This document shows positions 43,806 to 64,000 of a DNA stretch of 64,000 nt, in pieces. Both the position numbers and the translations under genes were made by a program. This DNA is from Acetobacterium sp. KB-1 (GTDB taxonomy: Bacteria; Bacillota; Clostridia; Eubacteriales; Eubacteriaceae): positions 2,899,176 through 2,963,175 of the forward strand of contig NZ_CP030040.1 of assembly GCF_003260995.1 (NCBI RefSeq). Reading direction: 5' to 3'. Under the pieces are notes generated by a model. That model did not search any database and was not told the origin of the DNA. It saw nothing but the letters and a program-made list of their open reading frames with translations. Every line of letters begins with the position of its first letter. Position 1 is the first letter of the stretch.

Positions 43806-43834
43806 TTGACAATTGTCAGTAATCTTGTTATAAT
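43806..43834 (+). promoter_or_regulatory. Consensus promoter with a palindrome across the -35
   Basis: TTGACA (43806-43811), 17 bases, TATAAT (43829-43834), a perfect sigma-A promoter. TGACAATTGTCA (43807-43818) is a 12-base perfect palindrome overlapping the -35 and may be an operator. Confidence 0.75.
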
Positions 43835-43863
43835 TCACTTACTTAAATTAAGAATTAATTAAG

Positions 43864-43919
43864 ACGCCAGTGAGGCAGAAGCTCTTTGAAAAGAGTTTTG
43901 GTTCATTGGCGTTTTTTTT
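43864..43919 (+). terminator. Leader terminator upstream of the first methyltransferase gene
   Basis: Ten-base stem ACGCCAGTGA (43864-43873) with TCATTGGCGT (43903-43912), enclosing a second hairpin (43880-43897), and followed by eight T. It lies only about 30 bases after the predicted transcription start and 25 bases before the methyltransferase gene. It is therefore an attenuator or the end of a roughly 80-base small RNA. Confidence 0.75.
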
Positions 43920-43944
43920 GCAAAAAAGAAGGAGTGTAAAGAAG

Positions 43945-44538
43945 TTGAGTGTGAATAATTGTCAAGCGACAAAAGAGTATTTTAATAACATTGCAAAAAA
44001 ATGGGACAGTATCTGTCAGCATGATCCCTACAAGATTTCCGCGATTCTGACCCTGGCAGGAATAAAAAAGGCTAGTCGGATTCTGGATATTGCAACCGGG
44101 ACAGGGATACTGATTCCACATTTATTAAAGCAAGAACCAGCTGAGATTGTTGCCATTGATTTATCAGAACAAATGATCATTCAGGCACAGAAGAATTACA
44201 AGAGTCAGCTGGTTCATTTTGAAAATGCCAATTTTTATGCGTTTGATCAGAAGGGATTTGATTTTGCCATCGTCTATAGTGCTTATCCCCATTTTGAAAA
44301 CAAAGAAGCCTTGATGCTGCAATTATCGTCCTGCCTGAAACCAGGGGGACGGTTTATGATTGCCCACAGTGAAAGCAAAGAGACGATCAATGGCCGACAT
44401 TCGGGTGAACATGTAAAAATGGTTTCAACGACTTTAAATGACGTGATGACAGAATCGGAAAAATTCCGGGCCTGTTTTTCCGTTGATATAATGGTGGATA
44501 CCGAAGCCTTATATATTATTTCAGGACGAAAATTATAA
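43945..44538 (+). CDS. Class I SAM-dependent methyltransferase (MT1)
   Basis: 197 residues from the TTG at 43945, nine bases behind AAGGAGTG; GTG 43951 is possible. The longer frame to 43870 crosses the leader terminator and is rejected. Motif I is LDIATGTG (47-54), with the acidic end of strand 2 in IVAIDLSEQM, and post-motif FDFAIVYSAYPHF. The fold is UbiE-like, but the protein is short and the target is unknown. It heads a region in which three further methyltransferases alternate with ABC importers, so a small-molecule or metal-ligand substrate is inferred rather than shown. Confidence 0.82.
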   Translation: MSVNNCQATKEYFNNIAKKWDSICQHDPYKISAILTLAGIKKASRILDIATGTGILIPHLLKQEPAEIVAIDLSEQMIIQAQKNYKSQLVHFENANFYAFDQKGFDFAIVYSAYPHFENKEALMLQLSSCLKPGGRFMIAHSESKETINGRHSGEHVKMVSTTLNDVMTESEKFRACFSVDIMVDTEALYIISGRKL

Positions 44539-44601
44539 GATGAGGTGATAATTTTTTTGTCCTATATAGTATATACAACTTTATACATGTATATAAAAAC
44601 G

Positions 44602-44636
44602 TTGTATTATCAAAAGATAGTCATTTGATAATACAA
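44602..44636 (+). promoter_or_regulatory. Perfect 13-base inverted repeat in the MT2 promoter region
   Basis: TTGTATTATCAAA (44602-44614) and its complement TTTGATAATACAA (44624-44636), separated by nine bases and not followed by a T run, so an operator is likelier than a terminator. A second, weaker symmetric element, TATATAC...GTATATA, lies 15-45 bases upstream. The arms GTATTATC/GATAATAC vaguely recall nickel-regulator sites, but the spacing differs from known NikR consensus. Confidence 0.55.
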
Positions 44637-44671
44637 TCTGAAATTAACAAGCTAGTTGAAGGAGATCAAAC

Positions 44672-45793
44672 GTGTTTAATGATGATGTGTTGCTTAATAA
44701 ACCAATAGTGGAAACGGATCCATTGTATCAATTCCTGAATACCTGCTCGAGGAGTTTTAAACAGTTTAAAATTCTCGATACTGCGATAAAGCGAGGCTTT
44801 TTTAATCATCTGGATGAATGGAAATCAGCAGTTGATTTAGCAAAAGTGTTGGGTACCAATCCAGATTTGACCGATTGTATATGTATGAGTCTGGCTGAAA
44901 TCGGTTTTATTGAGCAGAGCGGCGAGGTGTTTAAGAACTCAGAACTCAGCACATGCTATTTTAAAAGTGAGTCGCCGTATTTTCAGGGAGAAGTGCTGTT
45001 TAACATCAAAAATGGTTTTTCACTCTGGGAAAGACTTGATGAAGTAATAGAAAATGGACCGATCAAAGTAAGCGAAGCTGATTATTTTAAGGACAATCTG
45101 ATTCATTCCCTCGCCTCTGAAATTATGTGTGGGGAGCTGCAAAAAACTACAAGTCTAATCGCATCATTGCCCGAATTTTCCAGGGCAGAAAAACTGCTGG
45201 ATCTGGGCGGGGGACACGGTCTTTATTCAGTCGCGTTGAGTCGGCTTAACCAGAATCTCGAGATCGATATTTATGATTTTCCCGATGTTATTGAGGCGAC
45301 CCAAAAATATCTGGAAAAATATGATGCCCATCGAATTAATTTAAAACCGGGTAATCTTTTTATGGACGCTATTGGTAATGACTATGATCTGCTATTGTTC
45401 TCCTACAATCCGGGCGGAAAAAACCCGGAGCTGGTGCCGAAGATTTTTTCGGCGCTGAAAGAAGGGGGCTTATTTATTAGCAAGCACGTTTTCTATGGCA
45501 AGGATGAAGGATCGAGAGATCCGCTGCTTGATCTTGAGTATAATCTTTCAGATTTTGAAGGTGTTAAAAAGGGCCGAAAAATCTATAGTTTTGCTAGAGA
45601 TCTGACATTTGAAGCCTATCTTAGCTTGCTTGAACAGTATTTTACGATTGTCCAGATTGTTGAGACTGAAGACTTTGCCACAGAACCGCTGTCAAAATTT
45701 GGCGATGCATTGGAGGCAAAGATGATTATTGCAAAAAAGAAAGCTAAAAAGCAGTGTGTCGAGCGGGATGAGGTTGAAGTGATTGGGGGTTGA
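44672..45793 (+). CDS. O-methyltransferase-type SAM methyltransferase with dimerisation domain (MT2)
   Basis: 373 residues with a GTG start behind GAAGGAG. The N-terminal winged-helix dimerisation module (about 15-100) is followed by a SAM domain with motif I LDLGGGHG (176-183). FDFPDVIE and KPGNLF match the methyltransferase_2 (hydroxyindole/caffeate OMT-like) family. These enzymes methylate hydroxyl groups of small aromatic or polyketide molecules. It is the first gene of a run with a complete nickel/peptide-type ABC importer, starting three bases before the permease gene, so its substrate may be what that importer brings in. Function otherwise unknown. Confidence 0.83.
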   Translation: MFNDDVLLNKPIVETDPLYQFLNTCSRSFKQFKILDTAIKRGFFNHLDEWKSAVDLAKVLGTNPDLTDCICMSLAEIGFIEQSGEVFKNSELSTCYFKSESPYFQGEVLFNIKNGFSLWERLDEVIENGPIKVSEADYFKDNLIHSLASEIMCGELQKTTSLIASLPEFSRAEKLLDLGGGHGLYSVALSRLNQNLEIDIYDFPDVIEATQKYLEKYDAHRINLKPGNLFMDAIGNDYDLLLFSYNPGGKNPELVPKIFSALKEGGLFISKHVFYGKDEGSRDPLLDLEYNLSDFEGVKKGRKIYSFARDLTFEAYLSLLEQYFTIVQIVETEDFATEPLSKFGDALEAKMIIAKKKAKKQCVERDEVEVIGG

Positions 45794-45796
45794 GCA

Positions 45797-46738
45797 ATGT
45801 ACCGCTATATCGGTAAACGTTTATGCTTGTTATTGATTGTCATAATCGGGGTAACCGTCCTGACCTTTACACTGATGCATGCGGCGCCGGGGGATATGGC
45901 GGAAATGATTGCCATTTCCCGCTATGGGGTAGAAAACCTGACAACCGCAGAGGTGGAAGCAATCCGGCTGTCAGAAGGTCTGGATTCACCGGTAATGGTG
46001 CAGTATTTTCATTGGCTGACTCATATGATCAGCGGTGATTTTGGCAACTCACTGATTACCGGAGAACCGGTTATGGAAGAAATTCTGATCCGCTTACCGG
46101 CCACCCTGAAATTATCATTTGCTGCGCTGCTGGTATCGCTGGTAATTGCGATTCCGGCCGGTGTGATTGCGGCATCCAAACAGCATTCACTGATGGATCA
46201 TCTAACCATGTCCAGCGCCTTGATCGGAACCAGTGTTCCGAATTTTTGGCTGGGACTCCTGTTAATTCTGCTATTTTCGGTTACCCTGGGATGGTTTCCG
46301 GTTTTTGGCTATGGTGGCCTTCGTTATATGGTGTTACCGGCACTGACACTGGGAGCGGGACTGGCGGGCATTACCACCCGCCTGACCCGCTCCAGCATGC
46401 TGGAGGTACTCAATCAGGATTATGTTACCACGGCCCGGTCAAAAGGATTGTCGGAGCGGCGGATCATTTTCAAACATGCCTTAAAAAATGCCTTTATCCC
46501 GATCATCACCGTAATTGGCATTCAACTGGGTCATTTGTTGGGTGGAACAGTGATTGTCGAGTCGATTTTTGCCTGGCCGGGAATTGGCAAGCTTCTGGTT
46601 GATTCAATTTACGCCCGGGATTTTGCCACGGTTCAGGCCTGTGCCTTGTTGTTTGCGATTATTTTTGTCCTGATCAACCTGATTGTGGATATTCTTTATC
46701 TGTTTTTGAATCCTAAAATAAGTTACCAGAAGGAATAA
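45797..46738 (+). CDS. Nickel/oligopeptide-type ABC importer permease (NikB/DppB-like), system 1
   Basis: 313 residues, six membrane helices. The opening MYRYIGKRLCLLLIVIIGVT and the GDFGNSLITG segment are typical of DppB/NikB permeases. The ATPase-contacting EAA loop is DYVTTARSKGLSERRIIFKHAL. It forms the import channel with the next gene product. The stop overlaps the next start (TAATG), showing translational coupling. Peptide and nickel permeases cannot be told apart by sequence alone. Confidence 0.9.
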   Translation: MYRYIGKRLCLLLIVIIGVTVLTFTLMHAAPGDMAEMIAISRYGVENLTTAEVEAIRLSEGLDSPVMVQYFHWLTHMISGDFGNSLITGEPVMEEILIRLPATLKLSFAALLVSLVIAIPAGVIAASKQHSLMDHLTMSSALIGTSVPNFWLGLLLILLFSVTLGWFPVFGYGGLRYMVLPALTLGAGLAGITTRLTRSSMLEVLNQDYVTTARSKGLSERRIIFKHALKNAFIPIITVIGIQLGHLLGGTVIVESIFAWPGIGKLLVDSIYARDFATVQACALLFAIIFVLINLIVDILYLFLNPKISYQKE

Positions 46739-47574
46739 TGATGATACGTGATATTCTAAAAAATAAGATGGCACTCAGCGGACTGCTCATTATCACGATG
46801 CTGATTCTGGTGGCGCTATTGGCACCGGTTCTGGCACCTCATGATCCCTATGAGCAATTACTGGAAAAGGCATTGATGGCGCCTTGTTGGGATTATCCCT
46901 TTGGTACCGATGAGTACGGTCGTTGTGTTTTAAGCCGGATCATCTTCGGAACCCAGACGGCCTTGTTTATCGGTTTGAGTGTGACCGTGGTCTCAGCTTT
47001 TGTTGGGGTGGGGATCGGGTTGACCGCAGGGTTTTACGGTGGTCACTTTGATGAATTTCTGATGCGCATTGTGGATGTGTTTCTGGCCTTTCCCGGGTTG
47101 ATTCTGGCGCTGGTGGTAGCGGGTTTGCTGGGGCCGGGGCTGCCAAACGTTATTTTTGCTCTGGCTTTAGTTGGCTGGATGGGTTATGCCCGGGTCGTCA
47201 GAGGGGCGGTTCTGGCCGAAAAAGAGAAAGAGTTCGTCGAAACCGCGCGCTCCCTTGGTGCCAGTGATGGTTACATCATCTTTTTGCATCTGCTGCCCAA
47301 TATTATTTCGCCGGTGATTGTGATGGCCAGTATTGGCATCGGTCAGGCCATTCTGGGAGCGGCGGCTCTGAGTTTTCTCGGAATCGGGGTACAGCCACCG
47401 ACAGCGATGTGGGGTTCGATGCTGAGTTACGGCAAAGACTATCTCCAGTCAGCCCCTTATTTAACGATTTTTCCGGGCGTGATTATTATGGTGACGGTAC
47501 TGGCTTTTAACTTTCTGGGGGATGGGTTAAGAGATGTCTGTGACCCCCGGTATGGAAAAGTGATCGAAGAATAG
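46738..47574 (+). CDS. Nickel/oligopeptide-type ABC importer permease (NikC/DppC-like), system 1
   Basis: 278 residues; ATG 46738 or ATG 46741 may be used (AGAAGGA at 46728). One N-terminal helix, the family segment HPYGTDEYGRCVLSRI-like (FGTDEYGRCVLSRI), then five more helices. The EAA loop is EFVETARSLGASDGYIIFLHLLPN. Partner of the preceding NikB-like permease. It is followed by the first ATPase gene with a short overlap-like junction. Confidence 0.9.
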   Translation: MMIRDILKNKMALSGLLIITMLILVALLAPVLAPHDPYEQLLEKALMAPCWDYPFGTDEYGRCVLSRIIFGTQTALFIGLSVTVVSAFVGVGIGLTAGFYGGHFDEFLMRIVDVFLAFPGLILALVVAGLLGPGLPNVIFALALVGWMGYARVVRGAVLAEKEKEFVETARSLGASDGYIIFLHLLPNIISPVIVMASIGIGQAILGAAALSFLGIGVQPPTAMWGSMLSYGKDYLQSAPYLTIFPGVIIMVTVLAFNFLGDGLRDVCDPRYGKVIEE

Positions 47575-47579
47575 GGGTG

Positions 47580-48524
47580 ATGGAGTTGACATTACTGAGC
47601 ATAAAAAATCTGAATACCGCATTTAAAACGCGAAATGGGGAAGTGCAGGCCTGTAAAAATATCGATCTGGACATTGAAGTGGGTCAAACCGTGGGAATTA
47701 TAGGCGAAACCGGCTGTGGAAAATCGGTGCTGGGGATGTCGATCTTAAAGTTGTTGCCCTATAATGCCAGGGTCACCGGCGAAATCCGGTATCTGGAACA
47801 GAACTTGCTAACCTTATCGGATCAGGCGATGCGGGAAATTCGCGGCGGCGGCATTGGTCTTTTGCCCCAGAGTCCGTCAACTTCTCTGAATCCGGCGATG
47901 AAAATCGGCACACAGATCGAGGAAGGACTGGTTCTTCACCGAAAAATGGGTAAGCCGGCCGCCAAACAGAAAGCGGTGGACATGCTTACTTTTCTGGGGA
48001 TTAAAAAAGCAAAAAAAGTCAGCGAACAATTTCCCCACCAGTTAAGTGGCGGAATGAAACAGCGGGCGTTGGCAGCCATCAGCATTACCGGAGAACCCCG
48101 GCTTCTGATTGCCGATGAGCCCACCAAAGGGTTGGATGCCATTGTCAAAACTCAGGTGGTTGAGCTGCTAAAGCAATTGAAAGCGGAAACAGGCGCCGCC
48201 TTACTTTTAATCACTCATGATCTGAAAGTGGCTGAATGTCTTTGTGATAAAATCGTGGTAATGTATTCGGGGGAAATCATTGAAATGGCAGCGACCCAAA
48301 AAATTCTTAAAAAGCCCGCACATCCGTATACCAAGGGGCTGTTACAGTCTTTGCCGGAGGCTGGAATGACGCCAATCCCCGGACAAAGCCCGAGTTTGAG
48401 TCAGGTGATTTCAGGTTGCCGCTTTTATGACCGCTGTGAAATCAGACAGGCAGCCTGCCAGCATCAAAGGGTACCCTTGAGCGTGGTAAACGGTTCTCAG
48501 GTAAGGTGTTTATATGCTGATTAG
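47580..48524 (+). CDS. ABC importer ATPase (NikD/DppD-like), system 1
   Basis: 314 residues from ATG 47580 (GTG 47577 also in frame). Walker A GETGCGKS, Q-loop LLPQSPSTSLNP, signature LSGGMKQR, Walker B LLIADEPTKGLD and switch His ITHDLK are all intact. The C-terminus has the oligopeptide/HPY extension with Cys residues CRFYDRCEIRQAAC...RCLY, which in this family can hold an iron-sulfur cluster. The 3' end overlaps the next ATPase gene by 11 bases. Powers uptake together with the second ATPase. Confidence 0.91.
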   Translation: MELTLLSIKNLNTAFKTRNGEVQACKNIDLDIEVGQTVGIIGETGCGKSVLGMSILKLLPYNARVTGEIRYLEQNLLTLSDQAMREIRGGGIGLLPQSPSTSLNPAMKIGTQIEEGLVLHRKMGKPAAKQKAVDMLTFLGIKKAKKVSEQFPHQLSGGMKQRALAAISITGEPRLLIADEPTKGLDAIVKTQVVELLKQLKAETGAALLLITHDLKVAECLCDKIVVMYSGEIIEMAATQKILKKPAHPYTKGLLQSLPEAGMTPIPGQSPSLSQVISGCRFYDRCEIRQAACQHQRVPLSVVNGSQVRCLYAD

Positions 48525-49449
48525 AGTAGAAAACCTATGCAAACATTACAAAACTGGAAACATGCATGCAAAACAGCAGTCGGTGCTTGAACAGCTGAAC
48601 TTCTCGATTGCCCAGGGCCAAACCCTGGGGTTGATTGGTGAAAGTGGCTGTGGCAAGTCCACGCTGGCGAGAACCATGCTGGGACTGACACCGCCCTCCG
48701 GAGGAAAGATATTTTTAAATGAACAAGAAGTTTTAACCCAACGGGGAAGCTTGAAAAAAGAGTTTTGTGGGAAAATGCAGATTATTTTCCAACATCCGGA
48801 AAGCGCACTAAACCCGCGGATGAAGATTGCGCAGAGTCTGGCTGAGCCCCGGCGGATTCAGCAGCGGTACGCAAAAAACTTGGCTGCACAGGAGGACATG
48901 GACAGTCTTTTGAAACAGGTGGGTTTGAGTGAAGAGCATCTAAGCCGCTATCCCCATGAACTCAGTGGCGGACAAATTCAGCGGGTGGTGCTGGCGCGGA
49001 TTCTATCACTCAATCCAGAATTTCTGGTGGCGGATGAACCCACCTCGATGCTGGATGTCTCGGTACAGGCCCAGGTGCTTCACATTTTAAAAGAAAATCA
49101 GAAAAAACATGGAATTGGGTTATTGTTTATCTCTCATGATCTGGAAGTCGTCCGATGGATGAGCGATCAGATTGCGGTGATGTACAAAGGCCAGATTGTA
49201 GAAATGGCCCCAGCCGCAGACTTGTATAACCATCCCCGACATCCCTACAGCCAGTTGCTGGTAGAATCATCACTAGCCCATCAGCCGGTTTGGGAGACAA
49301 AAAACACAGAACCACTGCGGCCGGAGGGGGGCAATGGCTGTCAGTTTTTTCAGCATTGTTGCCAATCTGAAGAAGCCTGCAAAAACAAACCGGCACTGCA
49401 CGAAAAAGCACCTGGTCATACAGTAGCCTGCTGGAAAGCGTCGTTATAA
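48514..49449 (+). CDS. ABC importer ATPase (NikE/DppF-like), system 1
   Basis: 311 residues. Walker A GESGCGKST, Q-loop IIFQHPESALNPRM, signature LSGGQIQR, Walker B FLVADEPTSMLD, switch His ISHDLE. A C-terminal Cys-containing extension (CQFFQHCCQSEEAC...ACWK) repeats the cluster-like pattern of its partner. Translationally coupled to the preceding gene by overlap. Complete and expected to be active. Confidence 0.91.
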   Translation: MLIRVENLCKHYKTGNMHAKQQSVLEQLNFSIAQGQTLGLIGESGCGKSTLARTMLGLTPPSGGKIFLNEQEVLTQRGSLKKEFCGKMQIIFQHPESALNPRMKIAQSLAEPRRIQQRYAKNLAAQEDMDSLLKQVGLSEEHLSRYPHELSGGQIQRVVLARILSLNPEFLVADEPTSMLDVSVQAQVLHILKENQKKHGIGLLFISHDLEVVRWMSDQIAVMYKGQIVEMAPAADLYNHPRHPYSQLLVESSLAHQPVWETKNTEPLRPEGGNGCQFFQHCCQSEEACKNKPALHEKAPGHTVACWKASL

Positions 49450-49560
49450 ACTGATGACAATGGTTAACGATTATCGTTGCCCGGAAGAAATGATAAAAAA
49501 GCAATCTTTTTCCGGCATAGAAAAATTAATAGATCGATCTAAAACCTGAGGAGGAGAAAA

Positions 49561-51099
49561 GTGAAAAGTAAAAAATTATATCTAGTAGCCATTATTTTGA
49601 TGGGCATGTTCCTGGTTGGTGGATGCAGTGTGAATGGATCCACTGCCAGTAAAGATCAGATATTGGATGTGGCGATCGGAACGGATATTAATACTTGGGA
49701 TATTACCAAATTCCCGGAAGGTGACGCCCGTTTTGTATGGTCCCAGATTTATGAAACCCTGGTACGATTGGATGCCGACTTGAATATGGTTCCCGGTTTG
49801 GCGGAATCTTGGGAATCCCAGGAGAATGGAAAAGTCTGGATCTTTAAATTACGGCAGGATGTCAAATTTCATGACGGTACCCCTTTGACTGCTGAAGCGG
49901 TGAAATATTCCTATGGGGATCGGGCCTATGTGACAATGGCTAAAACCCTGCAATTTGAAAACATCGAAGTAATCGATGATTATACCGTAAAGTTTACCTG
50001 TCCCAAACCCATGCCGTTGCCCACTTATATGACCCATATTGCCTGGCCGGTCGTCAGCCCTACCAGTGTCAGTGCAACGGGTGAGTTTATTAAACCCATT
50101 GGAACCGGACCCTTTAAGTATAATTCCTATACCAAGGGACAGGAAGTGGTTCTTGATAAGAATGAAGAGTACTGGGGAGATGAAGTAAAGCTCAGCCAGG
50201 TTATCTTTAAAATTATTCCGGATTCATCAACCCGGATTATGGCGCTGACCTCTGGCGATGTCGATATGAGCCTTAAAATTTCCGAAAGTGATGTTGCCCA
50301 GCTGGAAGCGGATAAGGATATCACCGTCAACCGCAAACTCAGTACCTTTACCGACTTTCTTCAGTTTAACACGGCCAAAGCACCGTTTGATGATGTCAGT
50401 GTTCGAAAAGCTGTCGCCAATGCCATCGATACCGAGGGAATCATTAAGAATGCGTTAAATGATGTGGGGGTGGCAGCTCAGGGAAGAGCCTATTCACCCG
50501 TTATGATGTTTTCGGCTAAAGATCTGCCGCTTTACAGCCAGAATCAGGCAACCGCCAAATCGTTATTGGCAGCCGCTGGCTGGAAAGACAACAATGGTGA
50601 TAAAATTCTGGAAAAAGACGGACAGCCCTTAAAGGTTGTGCTGCTGGTTGGTCAGTCCTGGAGTCCGAGAGAGCTAAAAATTTCAGAAATTTGTCAGGCT
50701 CAGTTGAAAGAAATTGGTTTTGATGTGGAGGTGCAGCAGGTGGAAGCGGCGGCTTTTAGTGAAATTGAAAAAGCCGGGAATTTTGATATGCTGATGCGAA
50801 CCGGTTATTATGTTTGGGGCCCTTATCCTCACCACGTTAAGGTCCATTTCTCAAAAAATTACGCCAGTCACTACAACAATCCAGCTTATGATCAACTGGT
50901 ACAAGAAGGTGAAAGTACAACAGATGAAGCTAAAAAAGCCGAGATATACGGTAACTTGCAGAAAATGATATTGGAAGAGGTTCCTGCTTTTTACCTGCTG
51001 CATGAAGAAAAAATTGTGGCAACAAGAAATAACGTTCAGGGTTACGAGATCTCAGCGGAAGACCCCTGGCTTGAATTAAGAGGCGTTTACCTGAAGTAA
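49561..51099 (+). CDS. Extracellular solute-binding lipoprotein (NikA/DppA-like), system 1
   Basis: 512 residues with a GTG start behind GAGGAG. A lipoprotein signal peptide ends MFLVGGCSV (lipobox, Cys about 22), so it is anchored outside the membrane. The body is SBP_bac_5: YETLVRLDADLNMVPGLAESWE, KFHDGTPLTAEAVKYS, GTGPFKYNSYTKGQEVVLDKN. It captures the ligand and hands it to the NikB/NikC-like channel. Family members bind peptides, nickel complexes, haem or opines; there is no reliable motif for choosing. The six genes from MT2 to the flavodoxin form one operon. Confidence 0.89.
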   Translation: MKSKKLYLVAIILMGMFLVGGCSVNGSTASKDQILDVAIGTDINTWDITKFPEGDARFVWSQIYETLVRLDADLNMVPGLAESWESQENGKVWIFKLRQDVKFHDGTPLTAEAVKYSYGDRAYVTMAKTLQFENIEVIDDYTVKFTCPKPMPLPTYMTHIAWPVVSPTSVSATGEFIKPIGTGPFKYNSYTKGQEVVLDKNEEYWGDEVKLSQVIFKIIPDSSTRIMALTSGDVDMSLKISESDVAQLEADKDITVNRKLSTFTDFLQFNTAKAPFDDVSVRKAVANAIDTEGIIKNALNDVGVAAQGRAYSPVMMFSAKDLPLYSQNQATAKSLLAAAGWKDNNGDKILEKDGQPLKVVLLVGQSWSPRELKISEICQAQLKEIGFDVEVQQVEAAAFSEIEKAGNFDMLMRTGYYVWGPYPHHVKVHFSKNYASHYNNPAYDQLVQEGESTTDEAKKAEIYGNLQKMILEEVPAFYLLHEEKIVATRNNVQGYEISAEDPWLELRGVYLK

Positions 51100-51118
51100 G
51101 GAAGGATGAGGAGATCAA

Positions 51119-54387: not shown

Positions 54388-54389
54388 TG

Positions 54390-55259: not shown

Positions 55260-55280
55260 ATCGAGTAAGGAGGAATTCTT

Positions 55281-57002: not shown

Positions 57003-57048
57003 AAGTTTTTAATATGAACAAAATGATAAGAATAGAAAGGCAGAAATA

Positions 57049-57915
57049 ATGGAAGAAATTTTAAAACTAAGAGAAGCAACTTATTGGGAAGCGGTTTGGG
57101 ACAAGGCTAAGCTGTATGGCAAAAAACCGGGCAGTGATGGGCTTGCTCATAGTGTTGAGCTGTGGGAAAAACGGGCTGAAAAGTTTAAAAACAATGTGAA
57201 AGGCGGGCGGGGTAAAAAAAGAACCGGCGATGTGATCAACTGGTTTGAAAATCAGGGGCTATCCCTTGAAGGCATGACGATTCTGGATATTGGTGCCGGG
57301 CCGGGGGCTTTTTCCTGTGCGTTTGCAGAAAAGAAGGCTCGGGTAACCGCGCTGGAACCAACCCTGGGGATGTCGTCAACCATCCGAGAACGCATTGAAA
57401 CAGAAGCAATCACAGGGTTGGAAGTTGTTCAAATGCCCTGGGAAGAAGTGGATGTAAAAAAGATGGGCTGGCAGGAGAATTTTGACATGGTATTTATTTC
57501 CATGTGCCCTGGGGTTCATAATGCCGAGCTGTTTAAAAAAGCGATGAGCTGTGCAAAAAAGTATGTTTATTATAGCGGTTGGGCGGGACGACGGGACAGC
57601 GAAGCCTTCAGTGAACTCTGGAAAGAACTTTATGGCGAAGAAATACCAATATGGCGCAGCGATATTATTTATAATCTGAACTGGCTTTATGCCCAGGGGT
57701 ACAGTCTGGCTTTTGAAGTGCAACAGGATGTGCATCCGGAAGAATCCTCGGTTGAGGATGCTGTGGAAGAGCTGATGTCGCGATTGAGCTTTTTGGGTAA
57801 GGATACCACCGGATTGATAGAAAAGGTAGCGGCTTTTGTTAGTGAACGGGCTGAAGCGGGGGTTTTTAAGACAAATGCAGTCTCCCGTCGGGGGAAAATT
57901 TTAGTGAAGCTTTAG
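57049..57915 (+). CDS. Class I SAM-dependent methyltransferase (MT3)
   Basis: 288 residues. Motif I is LDIGAGPG (79-86). Distinctive downstream pieces are MPWEEVDVKKMGW (129-141), DMVFISMCPGVHNAE and YVYYSGWAGR. The same pieces recur in MT4 at the end of the window (MPWEKADLAAEGW, DLVFASMSP, YCFMSGH), so MT3 and MT4 are paralogues of one uncommon family. It closes the system 2 importer operon, starting 46 bases after the ATPase gene. No ArsM-type cysteine set is seen. The substrate is presumably the ligand of the neighbouring transporter, which is unknown. Confidence 0.82.
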   Translation: MEEILKLREATYWEAVWDKAKLYGKKPGSDGLAHSVELWEKRAEKFKNNVKGGRGKKRTGDVINWFENQGLSLEGMTILDIGAGPGAFSCAFAEKKARVTALEPTLGMSSTIRERIETEAITGLEVVQMPWEEVDVKKMGWQENFDMVFISMCPGVHNAELFKKAMSCAKKYVYYSGWAGRRDSEAFSELWKELYGEEIPIWRSDIIYNLNWLYAQGYSLAFEVQQDVHPEESSVEDAVEELMSRLSFLGKDTTGLIEKVAAFVSERAEAGVFKTNAVSRRGKILVKL

Positions 57916-57980
57916 TGCCACAGGGGTTACTGATCATTGGGAAACGTAAAAATGTGGACCGAAAAAATGAAATAAACTAG

Positions 57981-58026
57981 AATAAACACAGCGCCGGGAA
58001 TTTTTATTTCAGATGCTGTGTTTATT
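57981..58026 (+). terminator. Terminator-like hairpin after MT3
   Basis: Perfect 12-base stem AATAAACACAGC (57981-57992) with GCTGTGTTTATT (58015-58026) around a 22-base loop. The following T run is weak, so it may be a modest terminator. Confidence 0.6.
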
Positions 58027-58065
58027 TGATTAACCGATCAACATTAAAATGATTCAAAATAATTA

Positions 58066-58115
58066 TTGACATATGTTACTTATAAGATTTATAATAAATA
58101 TTATAAGTAACATAT
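58066..58115 (+). promoter_or_regulatory. Promoter with 15-base inverted repeat (operator) before the DUF5320-like gene
   Basis: TTGACA (58066-58071), 18 bases, TATAAT (58090-58095). ATATGTTACTTATAA (58071-58085) and its exact complement (58101-58115) flank the -10, 15 bases apart. The arms begin right at the -35 and end past the transcription start, the position of a repressor operator. The regulator is not in this window. Confidence 0.75.
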
Positions 58116-58143
58116 ACCAATAAGATATAAAGGAGTCCTTAAA

Positions 58144-58359
58144 ATGCCAGGTAGAGATCGGACCGGACCGGATGGTCAGGGATCAAAAAGTGGAAAAGGA
58201 TTGGGACGTTGCTCGGGAATTAACGCCAAACGCCGTGGAAAAGGTTGTGGCTGCGGTTGTCGCAGAAGTTCGAAAAGCAAATCGACGCATGAACCTGAGA
58301 ATCTTGATGAACCAGGTCAAGCAACTGATCAGCAACGTAAAGAAATCGAAGGAAATTAA
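58144..58359 (+). CDS. Small Cys/Gly-rich DUF5320-like protein
   Basis: 71 residues, AAGGAG eight bases before the ATG. The opening MPGRDRTGPDGQGSKSGKGL is the DUF5320-type signature; a patch GKGCGCGCRR follows and the tail is acidic. Proteins with this start are often found near NifX/NafY-like and Mrp-type metal-cofactor proteins in anaerobes. Function is unknown; a metal- or cluster-binding peptide is a reasonable guess from the cysteines (one in GRC, three in CGCGC). First gene after the operator-bearing promoter; the MBL-fold gene follows. Confidence 0.75.
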   Translation: MPGRDRTGPDGQGSKSGKGLGRCSGINAKRRGKGCGCGCRRSSKSKSTHEPENLDEPGQATDQQRKEIEGN

Positions 58360-58407
58360 TACGGAAGGGATGTTTCCAATTGAGCAAGAATGGAAACCGG
58401 TGAAGGC

Positions 58408-59229
58408 ATGAAAATTGTAACATTAGCTGAAAACACATCGGTGTCTGAAGAATTCAAAAATGAACATGGATTGAGTTTATACATTGAAACCGAAACCCAT
58501 AAATTGCTATTTGATGTGGGTGCCAGCGGTCTGTTTGCAGAAAATGCCAAAAAACTGGGGGTTGACCTTTGCGAAGTGGATACCCTGGTCATTAGTCATG
58601 GTCATTATGATCATGGTGGTGGTTTAGAAACATTTCTTAAGATCAATGATAAGGCCGCAATCTATATCAATGGTCAAGCCTTTGAAAATCATTATTCTAA
58701 AAGAGCAGACGGGGAGGCCTATATCGGTCTGGATCAGGAACTGTTTTCTAATCCGCGCTTTATCTTTTTGGCAGCGGATTTCGTCATCGATGATGCTTTG
58801 TGCATTTTTTCAAATGTTCAGGGAGAACGCTGTTGCTCTACGGCCAACGCTGACCTGCTGATGGAAAAAGATGGGCTACGGATGGCAGATGATTTTTGTC
58901 ATGAACAGAACCTGATCATCCGGGAAAGAAATCAGGTCGTGCTGGTGGCAGGTTGTGCTCATAAGGGAGTCGTTAATATTCTTGATCATATGGCATCAAA
59001 CTATGATATGCAGCCGACTGTTGTCATTGGGGGATTTCATCTTTATAATCGCACCCGAAAAAAACCGGAGGCAAAAGAATTGATTGAGGAAATTGGTAAC
59101 GAACTCAAAAAAACTGCGATAATTTATTACACCTGCCATTGTACTGGGAAAGAGCCTTATCAAATCCTAAAAATGATGCTGGGAGAACAGGTTAATTATC
59201 TGGCAACCGGTAGCCGGGTTATTATTTAA
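58408..59229 (+). CDS. Metallo-beta-lactamase-fold protein of the MJ0301-like group
   Basis: 273 residues from ATG 58408 (family members start MKIxxLxENT); ATG 58390 would add six residues. The metal motif is H64-x-H66-x-D68-H69 in SHGHYDHGGG. VLVAGCAHKGVVNIL, GGFHLY and YYTCHCTGKEPY supply the later ligands. The archaeal relative MJ0301 has been linked to pterin (dihydropterin-RFAP-type) chemistry, but many relatives have no known substrate. Likely a cytoplasmic hydrolase. Located between a DUF5320-like peptide and a flavin reductase. Confidence 0.83.
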   Translation: MKIVTLAENTSVSEEFKNEHGLSLYIETETHKLLFDVGASGLFAENAKKLGVDLCEVDTLVISHGHYDHGGGLETFLKINDKAAIYINGQAFENHYSKRADGEAYIGLDQELFSNPRFIFLAADFVIDDALCIFSNVQGERCCSTANADLLMEKDGLRMADDFCHEQNLIIRERNQVVLVAGCAHKGVVNILDHMASNYDMQPTVVIGGFHLYNRTRKKPEAKELIEEIGNELKKTAIIYYTCHCTGKEPYQILKMMLGEQVNYLATGSRVII

Positions 59230-59255
59230 AAATAAAAAAGAACAAGGAGAAAATG

Positions 59256-59747
59256 ATGAACAAAGTAAAAGGAAATATGAAGTCGTGTTTAAATCCAGTG
59301 GCTAAGGTGTTGGTATCTTGTCGGGGATTAAATGGCGAAAACAATGCCCTGGCGGTGGGCTATTGCGGAAACTGCAGTTATGATCCGCCGATGGTCATGG
59401 TCGGGATTGTACCCTCACGGTATTCGTATCATCTGATTAAAGAGTCCGGCTGTTTTGTGGTGAATCTGGTTGATCAAGCCTATGAAGAAACCTTTAAATA
59501 TTTGGGTAGCCACAGCAAACGCGATGAAGATAAGCTGGCGGTGATGAAGGTCAATTTAGAAGAAGCTAAATTTGTCAATGCTCCGATTCTTGCCGATTGC
59601 CCAGTTAATATTGAATGTAGCATTGTAGACTCAATTGTCACCGGTTCTCACGAAATGTTTGTCGGAAAAATTGAGTATGTCCACGCCGATTCAAAAATGG
59701 TCAGTGACGATGGCTGTATTGATTTTTCACAGATAAAATTCTTATAA
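59256..59747 (+). CDS. Flavin reductase-like FMN-binding protein
   Basis: 163 residues from ATG 59256 (AAGGAGA just upstream; ATG 59253 is too close). The fold is the split-barrel flavin reductase (DIM6/NTAB) type: NPVAKVLVSCRG, PPMVMVGIVPSRYSYHLIKESGCFVVNL and FVGKIEYVHAD. Such proteins reduce FMN or pass electrons to a partner. The Cys residues in YCGNCSYDPP are unusual at the flavin loop. Ends the DUF5320/MBL cassette; a riboswitch-controlled operon follows. Confidence 0.86.
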   Translation: MNKVKGNMKSCLNPVAKVLVSCRGLNGENNALAVGYCGNCSYDPPMVMVGIVPSRYSYHLIKESGCFVVNLVDQAYEETFKYLGSHSKRDEDKLAVMKVNLEEAKFVNAPILADCPVNIECSIVDSIVTGSHEMFVGKIEYVHADSKMVSDDGCIDFSQIKFL

Positions 59748-59773
59748 ACAGATCAGAATATAGAGTTTTGTGG

Positions 59774-59807
59774 TTGACATAAAAAAATTATAATGGTATT
59801 ATGTCAA
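59774..59807 (+). promoter_or_regulatory. Promoter with symmetric element upstream of the second cobalamin riboswitch
   Basis: TTGACA (59774-59779), 17 bases, TATTAT (59797-59802). TTGACATAA (59774-59782) is repeated in reverse as TTATGTCAA (59799-59807), so the -35 and -10 lie in the two arms of one dyad. A protein repressor could act here in addition to the riboswitch. Confidence 0.7.
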
Positions 59808-59914
59808 AAACGTGTTAGTGGTTTGTAACATAAAAACACAGACAACTTATTGAAAACGTTAGCCTAAAAAATTTTGGGCGTTGATTTTATCAAATGAGTT
59901 TAATTTAATAACTT

Positions 59915-60072
59915 ATCATTCAAGGTGCCGATCATGAAGATCGGAGAATAGGGAAGCTTAGAAAGCACGGACCCACCACTGTGAACAGGGACGAATTCTT
60001 AAAAAACCACTGGGCTAAAGCCTGGGAAGGTGAGAATAGGATGAACTGTTAGTCAGGAGACCTGCCTTGATT
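59915..60072 (+). ncRNA. Cobalamin riboswitch upstream of MT4 and the FecBCD-like importer
   Basis: Diagnostic blocks appear in order: CAAGGTGCCG (59921), ATAGGGAAGC, GCACGGACCCACCACTGTG (the catalytic-looking core), GGGACGAA, CCACTGGGC...GCCTGGGAAGG, and the B12 box AGTCAGGAGACCTGCC with closing CCTTG (60065-60069). A terminator follows at 60127. Expression of the downstream methyltransferase and ABC importer should fall when corrinoid is plentiful. It accounts for most of the 488-base gap; the first 100 bases hold the promoter. Confidence 0.93.
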
Positions 60073-60126
60073 TAAAAAATATGCCAGGGGATGATTGGCC
60101 GCATGATTTAGAATACCTTGAGATGG

Positions 60127-60164
60127 GAAGGGTTTCTTTTATTAATAAAAGAAGCTCTTTTTTT
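60127..60164 (+). terminator. Riboswitch-linked terminator before MT4
   Basis: Core perfect palindrome TTCTTTTAT-TA-ATAAAAGAA (60134-60153), extended by seven further pairs with GU wobble, and ending in seven T. It is placed 70 bases before the MT4 start. Confidence 0.8.
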
Positions 60165-60235
60165 GTTTGCCCAGGGTAAGCGATTAAAGAAATTAAAAGC
60201 GTTTAAAATAATGAAAAAAGAAAAGAGGAGAAGCG

Positions 60236-61060
60236 ATGACTTTTGAGGAAAAATGGGTTGACAACAAGAAAAAGACGGATCTAAATGAAACCCAGCAGTT
60301 TTGGGATGATCGGGCTTCGGAGTTTAATGAGATGGGAAAGAGGGAAATGGCTGATGATCCGGTGCTGTCGCTTTTAAAAAGCAAGGATGCTATTTTCCCG
60401 GGAGCGAGAGTACTGGATATCGGATGTGGTGCTGGGCGCTATTCCAAAGAATTCTTAAAAATGGGCTGTGAAGTAGTGGGGATTGATATTTCCCCTAATA
60501 TGATTGATTTTACAAAGGAAAATGCTGCCAGTGTAAAGGCTGATTTTTTTACGTTTAAGGTTATGCCCTGGGAAAAGGCGGATCTGGCCGCAGAAGGATG
60601 GGAAGGCTATTTTGATCTCGTTTTTGCTTCTATGAGCCCAGCTATTAGCGGCCCCGAGGAATTAAAAAAAATGAATCAGGCCTCCAAAGGCTATTGTTTT
60701 ATGAGCGGACACCTGATCAAAGAAGATAAAATTGGAAATGAACTACGAGTGGCACTGAATAAAGAAAACCGCACCGCTGACTACCGGAATACCTTATATT
60801 ACGCCTTTAATATATTATGGGATATGGGCTTTTTTCCGGAGTTTCGACATAGTGAGAATCAACAGACAAAGATTTGGGAGCTGGAAAAAGCAACCAATTA
60901 TTATGCCCATATGTTAAGGGCTACCGATGAAGAGACAAAACAGACGATTCGGGATTATCTTAAGAATAAAAGCAAAGACGGACAGATTGAAGATATAAAC
61001 TATTCCAAAAACGGTCAATTGCTGTGGTCTGTTCTGTCTGCTCAAATAGACGGGAGATAA
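60236..61060 (+). CDS. Class I SAM-dependent methyltransferase (MT4), riboswitch-controlled
   Basis: 274 residues. Motif I is LDIGCGAG (60-67) and the acidic strand-2 residue is in VVGIDISPNM. It shares with MT3 the pattern FWDDRASEF/LWEKRAEKF, MPWE (110-113), GW, FD(L/M)VF, SM(S/C)P and an N(I/L)LW-x-GFFPEF-like segment. It begins the operon under the cobalamin riboswitch, ending two bases before the permease gene. Methylation of, or ligand exchange on, a corrinoid or metal chelate is an attractive guess because of that control. The family is otherwise uncharacterised. Confidence 0.85.
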   Translation: MTFEEKWVDNKKKTDLNETQQFWDDRASEFNEMGKREMADDPVLSLLKSKDAIFPGARVLDIGCGAGRYSKEFLKMGCEVVGIDISPNMIDFTKENAASVKADFFTFKVMPWEKADLAAEGWEGYFDLVFASMSPAISGPEELKKMNQASKGYCFMSGHLIKEDKIGNELRVALNKENRTADYRNTLYYAFNILWDMGFFPEFRHSENQQTKIWELEKATNYYAHMLRATDEETKQTIRDYLKNKSKDGQIEDINYSKNGQLLWSVLSAQIDGR

Positions 61061-61062
61061 AG

Positions 61063-62154
61063 ATGCTAAAAAAACCAAGTGCCGTGATTGAGGTGGAGGG
61101 CGACAGCCTGGAATTATACCAGAAATTCACGGGCAAAAAAACCGTGTTGATTCTCATTCTTTGCGCTTTGTTGCTGGTGGTAGCCATTTTTGCCATGAAT
61201 AGTGGGGCCATGGAATTGGATCCCACCGACATTGTCAAAACCCTGATGAGCATTGGTACCGAAATCTCTAGTGTAGTAGTATGGCGGATTCGTCTGCCCC
61301 GAGTTTTGGCCGCGGTTATTGCCGGTGCAGGTTTGGCAGTGGCCGGATGTGTGATGCAAAATAATTTAAGAAATCCGTTAGCATCGCCTTCTACCTTGGG
61401 GATTTCCAGTGCAGCTGCCTTTGGTGCCAATATCGCTATTATTGTATTGGGGGCTGGGACGGTGCAAAGCTCGGCAGCGCAGCCGATTATTGTCAACAAT
61501 CCTTATCTGGTAACGATTTTTGCCTTTGCTTTTTCCATGGGAGCGACCATGATAATTTTGCTGCTGTCCCGAATGCGCAGTTTTTCGCCGGAGTCTATTG
61601 TTCTGGCAGGGGTGGCACTGAGCTCTCTTTTTGGAGCAGGCACCACCTTGATTCAGTATTTTGCTGAATCAGTGCAGATTGCTGCCGCTATCTTCTGGAC
61701 CTTTGGGGACCTGGGTCGGGCTGGCTGGACAGAGGTTTATATTTTGGCTGCGGTGGTGGGTCTTGCGATGATCTACTTTATGATGAAGCGTTGGGATTAT
61801 AATGCACTGGACAATGGTGCCGATGCCGCTAAGAGTTTGGGGGTCAATGTCGAGCAAACCCGATTTGGCGGGATGCTGGTATCATCGATGATTACCGCAG
61901 TGACGGTATCATTTCTTGGTGTGATTGGGTTTATCGGTTTGGTGGCACCACAGATGGTCAGGCGGATAATCGGCGGGGATCATCGCTTTCTGATTCCCAT
62001 TTCTGCCTTAATGGGGGCGCTTTTGTTGCTGGTCTCGGATACCTTTGCCCGAACGATTATTTCCCCCATTATATTGCCAGTGGGAGCAGTGACATCATTT
62101 TTAGGGGCACCCCTGTTTTTGTATCTCTTACTTAAAGGAGGTAAACGTCGTTGA
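61063..62154 (+). CDS. FecCD/BtuC-type ABC importer permease
   Basis: 363 residues from ATG 61063 (the frame back to 61024 runs into MT4). About ten membrane helices are expected. Signature pieces are WRIRLPRVLAAVIAGAGLAVAGCVMQNNLRNPLASPSTLGIS and FIGLVAPQMVRRIIGGDHRFLIP. These permeases import cobalamin, siderophores or haem. The cobalamin riboswitch upstream favours corrinoid, but iron-chelate specificity cannot be excluded. It overlaps the ATPase gene by four bases. Confidence 0.92.
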   Translation: MLKKPSAVIEVEGDSLELYQKFTGKKTVLILILCALLLVVAIFAMNSGAMELDPTDIVKTLMSIGTEISSVVVWRIRLPRVLAAVIAGAGLAVAGCVMQNNLRNPLASPSTLGISSAAAFGANIAIIVLGAGTVQSSAAQPIIVNNPYLVTIFAFAFSMGATMIILLLSRMRSFSPESIVLAGVALSSLFGAGTTLIQYFAESVQIAAAIFWTFGDLGRAGWTEVYILAAVVGLAMIYFMMKRWDYNALDNGADAAKSLGVNVEQTRFGGMLVSSMITAVTVSFLGVIGFIGLVAPQMVRRIIGGDHRFLIPISALMGALLLLVSDTFARTIISPIILPVGAVTSFLGAPLFLYLLLKGGKRR

Positions 62155-62903
62155 ATTTACAAGTTGAAGGATTGGCTTTTGATTATCCTTGCCAAAACGT
62201 CTTAAAAGGGATCTCTTTTTCCATGAAGCGCGGGGAATGTTTGGCGATACTGGGAACAAATGGCGCCGGGAAATCGACTTTGCTTAAGTGTATTAACAAA
62301 ATCTTGAAGCCCCAGGGCGGGAGTGTCTTAATTGATCAGGAAAATATTAAAGCGTTTAAGCAGAGTGAGCTGGCCCAGAGAGTGGCTTATGTTTCTCAGA
62401 GTAATCAAAGTACAACCACGACAGTTTTTGATTCGATTCTGATTGGTAGAAAACCTTATATCAAATGGGATGTGGGGAAGAATGATTTAAATATTGTCAA
62501 TGAGACCATCAAGATGTTAAATTTGGAAAAATTTGCATTAAAAAATGTCGATGAGTTAAGCGGCGGCGAATATCAGAAGGTGTTAATTGGTCGGGCATTA
62601 GCCCAGGAAACTGATGTGCTAATGCTGGATGAGCCAACGAGCAGCTTGGATCTAAAAAATCAATTGGAGGTGCTTCAATTGATCAAAGAAATTGCCTACC
62701 TTAAAAATATCACGGCGGTGGTAACTATTCATGATCTGAATCTGGCATTACGCTTTGCCGATCAGTATATTTTACTAAAAGACGGTGTTATCCATGCTGC
62801 CGGTGGGAAGGAGGTTATTACCGAAGCAAATATAAAAGAAGTATATGGGGTAGACGTAACGGTTGAGCAAGTCAACAATCGTTCGGTTGTGGTTCCAATA
62901 TAA
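62151..62903 (+). CDS. FecE/BtuD-type ABC importer ATPase
   Basis: 250 residues with a TTG start nine bases behind AAAGGAGG; TTGA overlaps the permease stop. Walker A GTNGAGKSTLL, Q-loop YVSQSN, signature LSGGEYQK, Walker B VLMLDEPTSSLD and switch His TIHDLN are intact. It powers the FecCD/BtuC-like permease. Same operon as MT4 and the binding protein that follows after 18 bases. Confidence 0.93.
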   Translation: MNLQVEGLAFDYPCQNVLKGISFSMKRGECLAILGTNGAGKSTLLKCINKILKPQGGSVLIDQENIKAFKQSELAQRVAYVSQSNQSTTTTVFDSILIGRKPYIKWDVGKNDLNIVNETIKMLNLEKFALKNVDELSGGEYQKVLIGRALAQETDVLMLDEPTSSLDLKNQLEVLQLIKEIAYLKNITAVVTIHDLNLALRFADQYILLKDGVIHAAGGKEVITEANIKEVYGVDVTVEQVNNRSVVVPI

Positions 62904-62921
62904 AAGAAGCGAGGAGAAGCG

Positions 62922-64000
62922 ATGAAAAGAAAACGAATATTAGCTCTGGTGTTGTCGGCGGTGTTGATTTTAATGATGGCGGGCTGTTCTACCGAAGGGG
63001 GGACAACGGCAGATGAAATGATCACGGTTACCGATACCTTGGGTCGGACTGTCGAATTAGCAGGACCAGCGGAAAAAATTGTGGCAACCGGAGTTGGGGC
63101 CTTACGTTTATATACCTATGTTGGTGATGTAAAAAAAATTGTCGGAATTGAAGGCATTGATCAAAAGTCGTCAGTGGGCAAACCTTATGTTATTGCCAAC
63201 CCCAGTTTTACCAGCCTGACCACAATTGGGGCTGGTGGTCCGAATAGTACTCTCGATCCGGAACAGATTCTTAAGGTTGAGCCGGATGTTATCTTTACAA
63301 CCCTGGCCACCGATACTGCGGCAGCAGATGAACTTCAAAACAAAACGGGTATTCCGGTAATTGCTTTGAGCAGTGGTTCTTCGGGATTGTTTGATGATAC
63401 TCTTTATCAGTCGTTGGCAGTTATTGGCCAGGTTATGGGGACCGACGAAAGAGCAACGGAAGTGGTTGATTTTGTAAAAGGTTATGAAGCTGATTTAAAA
63501 AAGCGAACAGAAGGGATCGATGATGGTGCAAAGGTAACCTCCTATGTTGGGGCATTGGGATCTAAAGGCGCCCAGGGAATTGAAAGTACCCGAGCTTTGT
63601 ATCCGCCTTTTGTGGCTGTTGGTGCAATAAACGTTGTGGATCAGACGGGAAAAACCGGTAGTATGATGATTGATAAAGAACAATTGCTGCAATGGAATCC
63701 CAACAAGATATTCATCGATTTTGACGGGATTGAAAAAGTGAAAGCGGATATGTCGACAAATCCGGAATATTATCAAAGTCTCAGCGCTTTTAAAAACAAT
63801 GATGTTGAGATGATTCTACCTTATATTTTATATGGAACAAATGTTGAAGTCGCCATTGCTGATGCTTATTCAATTGGAAAGGTGCTCTATCCAGATCAGT
63901 TCAAGGATGTCGAGCCTGGTGATATTATGGATGAAGTGTCAATGGAATTATTAGGTGCCAAGGTTTATGACCAGATGGTTAAAGATTATGGTGCTTATGG
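62922..64000 (+). CDS. Periplasmic-binding-type lipoprotein of the FecB/BtuF family (3' truncated by window edge)
   Basis: Open from ATG 62922 (GAGGAG site) to the end of the window, 359 codons seen. A lipoprotein signal ends LMMAGC (Cys22). The TroA/BtuF-like domain begins ITVTDTLGRTVELAGPAEKI. The segments GKPYVIANPSFTSLTTIGAG and DPEQILKVEPDVIFTT resemble a branch common in anaerobes and methanogens, whose ligand is not settled. It presumably delivers corrinoid or another metal chelate to the FecCD-like permease. The stop codon lies beyond base 64000. Confidence 0.9.
   Translation, partial: MKRKRILALVLSAVLILMMAGCSTEGGTTADEMITVTDTLGRTVELAGPAEKIVATGVGALRLYTYVGDVKKIVGIEGIDQKSSVGKPYVIANPSFTSLTTIGAGGPNSTLDPEQILKVEPDVIFTTLATDTAAADELQNKTGIPVIALSSGSSGLFDDTLYQSLAVIGQVMGTDERATEVVDFVKGYEADLKKRTEGIDDGAKVTSYVGALGSKGAQGIESTRALYPPFVAVGAINVVDQTGKTGSMMIDKEQLLQWNPNKIFIDFDGIEKVKADMSTNPEYYQSLSAFKNNDVEMILPYILYGTNVEVAIADAYSIGKVLYPDQFKDVEPGDIMDEVSMELLGAKVYDQMVKDYGAY

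Follow-up and report, generated by a model that had tools for sequence, protein, structure and literature searches.

Importer-linked class I methyltransferases at a locus of Acetobacterium sp. KB-1 and their possible part in trace-metal uptake

The window analysed here is a 64,000-nucleotide stretch of the closed, 3.99 Mb genome of Acetobacterium sp. KB-1. Its end (43.8–64.0 kb) carries a locus of genes for S-adenosylmethionine (SAM)-dependent methyltransferases and ATP-binding cassette (ABC) importers. A preliminary description had listed four methyltransferases (MT1 to MT4), two Nik/Opp-type importers, one Fec/Btu-type importer and accessory genes facing the same way; open reading frames (ORFs) and Pfam matches confirm every gene, all on the plus strand. 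The Pfam scan took in 19 of the 20 genes, OppF being named by its similarity to OppDF2 (35% identity). MT1 (43870–44538, 222 amino acids) is a UbiE-like class I SAM methyltransferase (Methyltransf_25, 58.5 bits). MT2 (44672–45793, 373 amino acids) is O-methyltransferase-like, with Methyltransf_2 above its cut-off (37.3 bits) and the dimerisation domain slightly under (24.5 bits, cut-off 25.6). Importer 1 consists of OppB, OppC, OppD and OppF (45797–49449; BPD_transp_1, ABC_tran and oligo_HPY) and a NikA-like binding protein (49561–51099; SBP_bac_5, 318 bits). A flavodoxin/FMN-reductase-like protein (51119–51622; FMN_red, 28.9 bits) separates it from importer 2, which has a binding protein (51699–53306; SBP_bac_5, 254 bits), the permeases OppB2 and OppC2 (53383–55259; BPD_transp_1) and a fused ATPase, OppDF2, with two ABC_tran stretches (55281–57002). 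MT3 (57049–57915) is followed by a DUF5320 peptide (58144–58359; PF17253, 44.3 bits, cut-off 27), a metallo-β-lactamase (MBL)-fold protein (58390–59229; Lactamase_B, 51.9 bits) and a flavin reductase (59253–59747; Flavin_Reduct, 103.3 bits). Beyond a cobalamin riboswitch lie MT4 (60236–61060), a FecCD/BtuC-type permease (about 61069–62154, a chosen start in an ORF that opens at 61024; FecCD, 303.5 bits), a BtuD/FecE-type ATPase (62151–62903; ABC_tran, 113.1 bits) and a BtuF/FecB-type binding protein (62922–64000; Peripla_BP_2, 62.5 bits), whose gene ends 16 bases past the window and encodes 364 amino acids at full length (L024 97–1191; pieces of genomes are cited by such numbers). By these Pfam assignments the last three form a BtuFCD set.

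Importer 1 had been labelled a nickel/peptide type, and the nickel part of that label is not established. Its binding protein falls short of both NCBIfam nickel models (250.5 of 600 and 234.4 of 393 bits), which leaves nickel unproven as a plain cargo. In a single pairwise alignment with 1zlq, loose in this region, the residues that we take to be the NikA ligands, R137 and H416, correspond to a gap and to a serine with a histidine two columns off.

Sequence signals suggest that the locus is divided. An inverted repeat between MT1 and MT2 (44601–44637) could form a hairpin lacking a T-run (fold of 44596–44650, −14.0 kcal/mol). A terminator-like hairpin follows MT3 (about 57980–58027; fold of 57961–58040, −21.3 kcal/mol). 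Upstream of DUF5320, a TTGACA/TATAAT pair seen by eye overlaps a perfect 15-base inverted repeat found by repeat scan (58066–58115, arms 58071–58085 and 58101–58115). The cobalamin riboswitch (59906–60083; RF00174, 106.3 bits, gathering score 31.5) and a terminator-like hairpin of 15 base pairs with a T-run (60127–60166; fold of 60091–60175) precede MT4. As the hairpin after MT3, the promoter-like pair before DUF5320 and the riboswitch each mark a boundary, the signals suggest three units: MT1 to MT3; DUF5320-MBL-flavin reductase; and riboswitch-MT4-FecCD-BtuD-BtuF. These internal signals, together with relatives that carry the modules in other combinations, led us to reject a single 20-kb operon or conserved unit. 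The cobalamin riboswitch of the preliminary description is confirmed; control of MT4 and the Fec importer is a prediction from it and from the terminator-like hairpin before MT4. The inverted repeat at 58066–58115 also occurs, with one change, in a near-identical strain (G030). A second cobalamin riboswitch lies elsewhere in the window (27794–27972, 66.6 bits), ahead of what is presumably an anaerobic ribonucleotide reductase gene.

Within the genus the modules come and go. In another closed genome (L080) the order is SBP2-OppB2-OppC2-OppDF2-MT3-flavodoxin-MBL-flavin reductase-riboswitch-FecCD-BtuD-BtuF, where SBP denotes the binding protein; MT1, MT2, importer 1 and MT4 are missing, and the riboswitch and Fec genes are kept without MT4. 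G030 has MT1-MT2-importer 1-flavodoxin and then DUF5320-MBL-flavin reductase-MT4-Fec, lacks importer 2 and MT3, and carries two further Opp importers with methyltransferases upstream of MT1. Importer 2 was probably lost in G030, as the gap there holds, by eye, the apparent last codons of OppDF2. A third genome (G035) has MBL-flavin reductase-MT4-Fec and no Opp genes. The cobalamin riboswitch stands at the MT4 operon in three genomes of the genus (L054 and L056, both G030; L055; L057), MT4 being broken in two in L057. MT4 homologues are present in 30 of the 67 genomes of the order at 1e-20; of 20 places fetched, ten are by Fec-type genes and ten have no adjoining SBP5, OppBC, FecCD or BtuF label. 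The flavodoxin adjoins MT3 in L080 and L084, and it and the flavin reductase remain close by in the genus. Among 98 Bacillota pieces (described below) a flavodoxin label occurs at the methyltransferase in L207 and L212 only and a flavin reductase label in none, which leaves little of the earlier idea that imported complexes are reduced inside the cell. Two ABC exporters lie upstream of the locus (window 37241–43746), and similar genes precede the L080 and L055 counterparts. Downstream of BtuF, L054 (11853–11951), L055 (12983–13082) and L080 (16543–16643) have an azaaromatic (yjdF) riboswitch and then a small gene. In the window genome a gene that we take to be transposase-like (L024 1388–3136) stands between BtuF and the small gene (L024 3418–3837).

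MT3 and MT4 belong to one methyltransferase family, MT-A, as shown by Pfam and a tree. The family profile (A2) was built from 25 members, nearly all picked for adjoining importers or FmdE. At 1e-30 it gives 103 matches in 73 of 398 Bacillota genomes, four of them in the genome studied here. For the other 99 matches 98 pieces were fetched, L277 holding two of them, and 95 were scored for one methyltransferase each, the best-scoring where there were two; L230, L281 and L295 were left out as no ORF was labelled as methyltransferase, and L230 and L295 do carry importer genes. A methyltransferase was regarded as linked when SBP5, OppBC, FecCD or BtuF lay within three ORFs. A second family, MT-B, was searched with a profile (A5) of nine seeds likewise picked at importers; at 1e-45 it matches 22 of 293 genomes of the class. 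Linked are 43 of the 95 MT-A loci and 26 of the 40 non-own MT-B matches, the latter in 17 of 27 loci with several matches per locus; these shares are not unbiased rates, because the seeds of both profiles were picked at importers. As a control, 58 other class I methyltransferases with usable ORFs (63 loci listed, from a pattern scan) yielded two linked loci. Both linked control ORFs are themselves MT-B (262 and 230 bits), and in one, L151, the methyltransferase points away from the importer. Fisher tests against the control give p values of 4e-9 (MT-A) and 2e-11 (MT-B), a contrast that may be partly taxonomic since the control spans many phyla.

At 36 of the 43 linked MT-A loci a gene for an importer component or FmdE directly adjoins the methyltransferase on the same strand, and the median gap is 33.5 bases (50 neighbour gaps). 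An ATPase of more than 450 amino acids lies within six ORFs of the methyltransferase at 14 of the 27 Opp-linked loci. FmdE heads the order FmdE-MT-BtuF-FecCD-BtuD in L065, L068 and L071 and FmdE-MT-SBP-OppBC-OppDF in L082. Outside Bacillota the survey consisted of a capped pattern scan. A Desulfobacteraceae metagenome-assembled genome (MAG; L105) has a TonB receptor, the methyltransferase, SBP-OppB-OppDF and an FmdE-like gene. A Proteobacteria MAG (L127) has a TonB receptor, an FmdE-like gene, the methyltransferase, BtuF-FecCD-ATPase, TonB and a ModE-like protein (91.8 bits, cut-off 98.5). In two archaeal records (L102, L107) the methyltransferase stands between SBP and OppB. On a tree of 126 MT-A proteins, made by a quick method, the importer labels are clustered yet recur on separate branches. 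The Opp label requires 15 changes and the Fec label eight, with at least eight each forced by starred branches, and none of 500 label shuffles is as low for either. The labels take in neighbours within three ORFs only, and the four loci with both importer kinds form their own label, which can raise the counts. The importer type thus switches between Opp and Fec while the MT-A methyltransferase is retained. The linkage is recurrent, and for the MT3/MT4 family the conserved pairing proposed in the preliminary description is borne out on several branches.

Some observations on the two families stand apart. Twelve unlinked MT-A loci share one protein family within five ORFs, presumably alanyl-tRNA synthetase from the example in L248, a housekeeping setting for part of MT-A. 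Tandem proteins with two MT-B-like domains adjoin Opp importers in L084 (17225–18532, 435 amino acids) and L088 (5489–6829, 446 amino acids). DUF4198 genes occur near Opp importers and MT-B-type genes in L084 (by Pfam) and in L166, L336 and L350 (by a profile of the L084 protein alone).

As to the other two methyltransferases of the locus, the scores of MT1 against the two importer-linked profiles are low, at 28.7 and 43.3 bits, as against 192 to 366 bits for the importer-linked members in the same genome. MT2 was found at E 1e-25 in one of 391 genomes, its own, and otherwise only in the near-identical G030 (L088), outside that sample. It is lineage-specific by this distribution and was rejected as a member of a conserved system, the conserved linkage proposed for it finding no support. 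MT1 to MT4 and seven relatives reach no cut-off among the NCBIfam models listed (UbiE, CpaM, CbiT and ArsM among the named families). Pfam, alignment and models agree that MT3 and MT4 fold as class I enzymes and carry the glycine motif for SAM binding, an aspartate and three glycines being invariant. AlphaFold2 gives a mean predicted local distance difference test score of 89.1 for MT3 and 91.2 for MT4. Foldseek matches listed for these models are mostly small-molecule N-, O- and S-methyltransferases of class I at 10–20% identity. No function could be taken from the fold searches, only generic methyltransferases being among the matches listed. The methyltransferase is expected in the cytoplasm, as SAM is needed and no signal peptide is seen by eye.

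In the genome of strain KB-1 itself there are 27 Methyltransf_25 matches over the cut-off, six SBP_bac_5 matches and ten FecCD matches, the tenth of which is weak (38.8 bits) and was excluded from the chance test. Six of the 27 methyltransferases lie within 5 kb of SBP_bac_5 or FecCD (0.98 expected; 0 of 5000 joint rotations as high) and four within 3 kb (0.66 expected; 27 of 5000 as high), in a test run after the pairs had been seen. Further pairs are MT-FecCD-BtuD-BtuF (L009) and MT-OppBC-SBP-OppDF (L010). Two more are led by cobalamin riboswitches: OppBC-SBP-OppDF, a gene that we take to be MATE, and a methyltransferase (L012); and genes that we regard as nitrogenase-like (NifH-like), BtuF-FecCD-ATPase and a methyltransferase (L014). 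A riboswitch-led operon in L017 has CbiZ, a Fec importer and what we take to be CobN. Nitrogenase-like component genes adjoin Fec/Btu importers in L014 (11979–15528), L015 (12086–14789) and L331; the one such protein scanned gives Oxidored_nitro at 176.7 bits, an MT-B gene is present in L014 and L331, and cobalamin riboswitches lead L014 and L015.

Riboswitches provide the metal-specific signals. All 43 linked MT-A loci were scanned with Rfam, as were four of the 52 unlinked loci, picked on pattern hits. Only Rfam matches were counted, because a quick pattern scan gave false hits; its cobalamin hits in L224, L234, L255 and L268 are unconfirmed. Five linked pieces hold a cobalamin riboswitch. 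In L218 and L232 it lies directly 5′ of MT-SBP-OppBC-ATPase, L232 belonging to the MT3 clade. In L217 and L221 it follows an SBP-OppBC-ATPase-MT set and precedes further genes, presumably CbiM/Q/O, and in L219 it is found past the importer genes. Outside the Bacillota sample, L081 and L097 have a cobalamin riboswitch and then SBP-OppDF-OppBC-MT. Operons of this kind are thus headed by cobalamin riboswitches not only within the genus but also in four distant genomes (L218, L232, L081, L097). Molybdenum cofactor (Moco) RNA (RF01055) is found at three of the 43 linked loci, L284, L286 and L294 (69.2, 62.0 and 62.6 bits), directly 5′ of MT-BtuF-FecCD-ATPase in the first two and between MT and BtuF in the third. 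The P3 hairpin is absent from all three RNAs, and the three loci share one starred clade with L009 and L127. RNAs lacking P3 have been tied to the tungsten cofactor, 17 of 19 organisms with them also carrying genes that point to use of a tungsten cofactor, according to the available part of Regulski 2008 (PMC2408646).

Tentatively, and with somewhat less than even confidence, we propose that the locus stacks several importers of trace metals in complexed form, and that each importer has as its partner a cytoplasmic SAM methyltransferase acting on the imported material. The cargo would most likely be metal–ligand complexes, of cobalt or a corrinoid in the window and of tungsten in the other clade. 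Metals are proposed because there are two riboswitch classes, pointing to cobalt/corrinoid and to tungsten respectively, and a large or scarce cargo because TonB receptors lie beside the sets in the Gram-negatives L105 and L127. For MT4-FecCD-BtuD-BtuF we predict uptake of a corrinoid or a cobalt complex at low cobalamin, with transcription halted by the riboswitch at high cobalamin. Importer 2 and MT3 probably serve the same need, and for the other clade we predict that such a pairing handles tungsten. Our best guess is that the methyltransferase is the cytoplasmic step common to both metals, ligand methylation freeing the metal. A reaction on the ligand is proposed because it fits both metals, and donor-atom methylation is its simplest version. 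The enzyme would methylate a donor atom (N, O or S), the metal would be released and the spent ligand expelled or discarded; this is the least certain step.

Corrinoid or tetrapyrrole salvage, in which foreign corrinoids or porphyrin-like rings are imported and then altered by the methyltransferases, in the ring or in a side chain, ahead of their reuse or breakdown, appears rather unlikely to us. It would account for the cobalamin riboswitch, for the FecCD/BtuF importer type and for the riboswitch-led operons of L014 (nitrogenase-like subunits, Fec and MT-B) and L017. However, tungsten-type riboswitches and Opp-type importers in the same pairing do not suit a corrinoid cargo in all members.

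The preliminary description had also proposed that the methyltransferases mature a secreted chelator; in a reading of this kind they would make or finish a metallophore that is secreted and re-imported. In L012, L084, L332 and L333 genes that we take to be MATE-type exporters adjoin MT-B and Opp genes, and another stands just before the riboswitch and MT-A gene of L218. The extra methyltransferase of some zincophore clusters would be a precedent (available part of PMC7438024). Against this, no unlabelled gene family within five ORFs recurs in at least four of the 43 linked MT-A loci, so no synthesis gene is seen travelling with the pair; the genes at 43.8–64.0 kb have other assignments, those elsewhere in the genome not having been searched. 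We hold a metallophore to be unlikely.

That the importer, rather than its cargo, is what the methyltransferase modifies or regulates seems more improbable still. The methyltransferase partner is indeed kept while the riboswitch class changes, but the Opp and Fec permease families differ and many enzymes acting on small molecules are among the fold matches listed. Passenger genes riding on gene-rich, often exchanged importer islands with no joint work would fit the modular gain and loss in the genus and the unlinked MT-A loci, but are very improbable given linkage repeated on separate branches, the short median gap and the rate among controls (2 of 58).

Several points weigh against the proposal of methyltransferase-assisted unloading of metal complexes. 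We infer cargo, ligand and methylation reaction from gene context. The preliminary suggestion of metal-complex cargo is supported by cobalamin and tungsten-type riboswitches at some loci, but these are few (five linked loci with a cobalamin riboswitch, two of them directly before the operon, and three with Moco RNA), and the majority of linked loci are without a metal-specific signal. The riboswitch counts lack a control rate, four of 52 unlinked loci having been scanned, and one of these, L222, also has a cobalamin riboswitch. No Moco RNA reaches the gathering score in L009, although this locus of strain KB-1 belongs to the tungsten clade. MT-A is not importer-specific, as 52 of the 95 loci and ten of the 20 MT4-homologue places are unlinked, and the seeding of the profiles and the taxonomic spread of the control count here too. 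Judging from L080 without MT4 and G030 without MT3, the methyltransferases can be dispensable. The fold matches are generic, compatible with ligand methylation rather than diagnostic of it.

Cobalt, nickel and either tungsten or molybdenum are needed by acetogens and methanogens, and the ways in which they obtain these metals from bound forms in the absence of oxygen are, to our knowledge, largely open. It is doubtful, though conceivable, that SAM-methylation of ligands is a general way for anaerobes to unload trace-metal complexes, beside reduction and hydrolysis, with one type of enzyme drawn from two or more methyltransferase families, cobalt complexes entering via Opp or Fec and tungsten via Fec, and a riboswitch for the matching cofactor. 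A methyltransferase that travels with importers of metals as different as a cation and an oxyanion would indicate that the ligand, and not the metal, is the site of the chemistry. The recurrence of the pairing suggests that the use of scarce metals by cells includes a step so far unrecognised, and, with enzymes, binding proteins and a riboswitch-based metal prediction named, the question is open to bench test.

Known systems share parts of this arrangement. In the open-licence literature we came across no description of a methyltransferase that is conserved beside both importer types and under both riboswitch classes, nor of methyltransferases linked to importers where synthesis genes are lacking. 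Opine metallophore systems (staphylopine, pseudopaline, yersinopine) use Opp or FecCD importers, efflux pumps and sometimes an extra methyltransferase, proposed in some zincophore clusters to modify the zincophore (PMC7438024, available part). Unlike staphylopine-type loci, the genes at 43.8–64.0 kb include no nicotianamine-synthase-like or opine dehydrogenase gene, the rest of the genome not having been searched; 19 of the 20 have other Pfam assignments and OppF is named by similarity, in keeping with the earlier statement that the locus is no plain staphylopine-type one. FmdE (PF02663) has a mixed Zn/Ni site in one structure and Zn in another, and most FmdE genes have genes for metal-ion transporters as neighbours (PMC2954224), much as FmdE adjoins metal importers in the FmdE-MT-importer operons; the word methyltransferase is absent from the available text of that paper, unlike the operons described here. 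Like the Moco and tungsten cofactor regulon of Regulski 2008 (PMC2408646), the tungsten clade has a P3-lacking RNA ahead of import genes; unlike the MT-Fec operons, the available text of that paper names neither FecCD nor a methyltransferase. Zhang 2009 (PMC2667541) described cobalamin-riboswitch-led NikABCDE-type cobalt importers, separate from nickel-specific ones, in C. tetani and D. hafniense. The Nik/Opp-type importers found here behind cobalamin riboswitches resemble these; in the available part of that paper methyltransferases figure only as B12-dependent enzymes, whereas the importers described here are paired with a class I methyltransferase, which accompanies Fec-type importers as well. 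There is also a likeness to Dehalobacter operon-2, a corrinoid-starvation operon with a BtuFCD-type importer, CbiZ and CobN and with reported synteny to A. woodii (PMC4285132, available part). Both it and the MT4 operon place a Fec/Btu-type importer under a cobalamin riboswitch; where operon-2, and apparently L017 likewise, has CbiZ and CobN, a class I methyltransferase takes their place in the MT4 operon.

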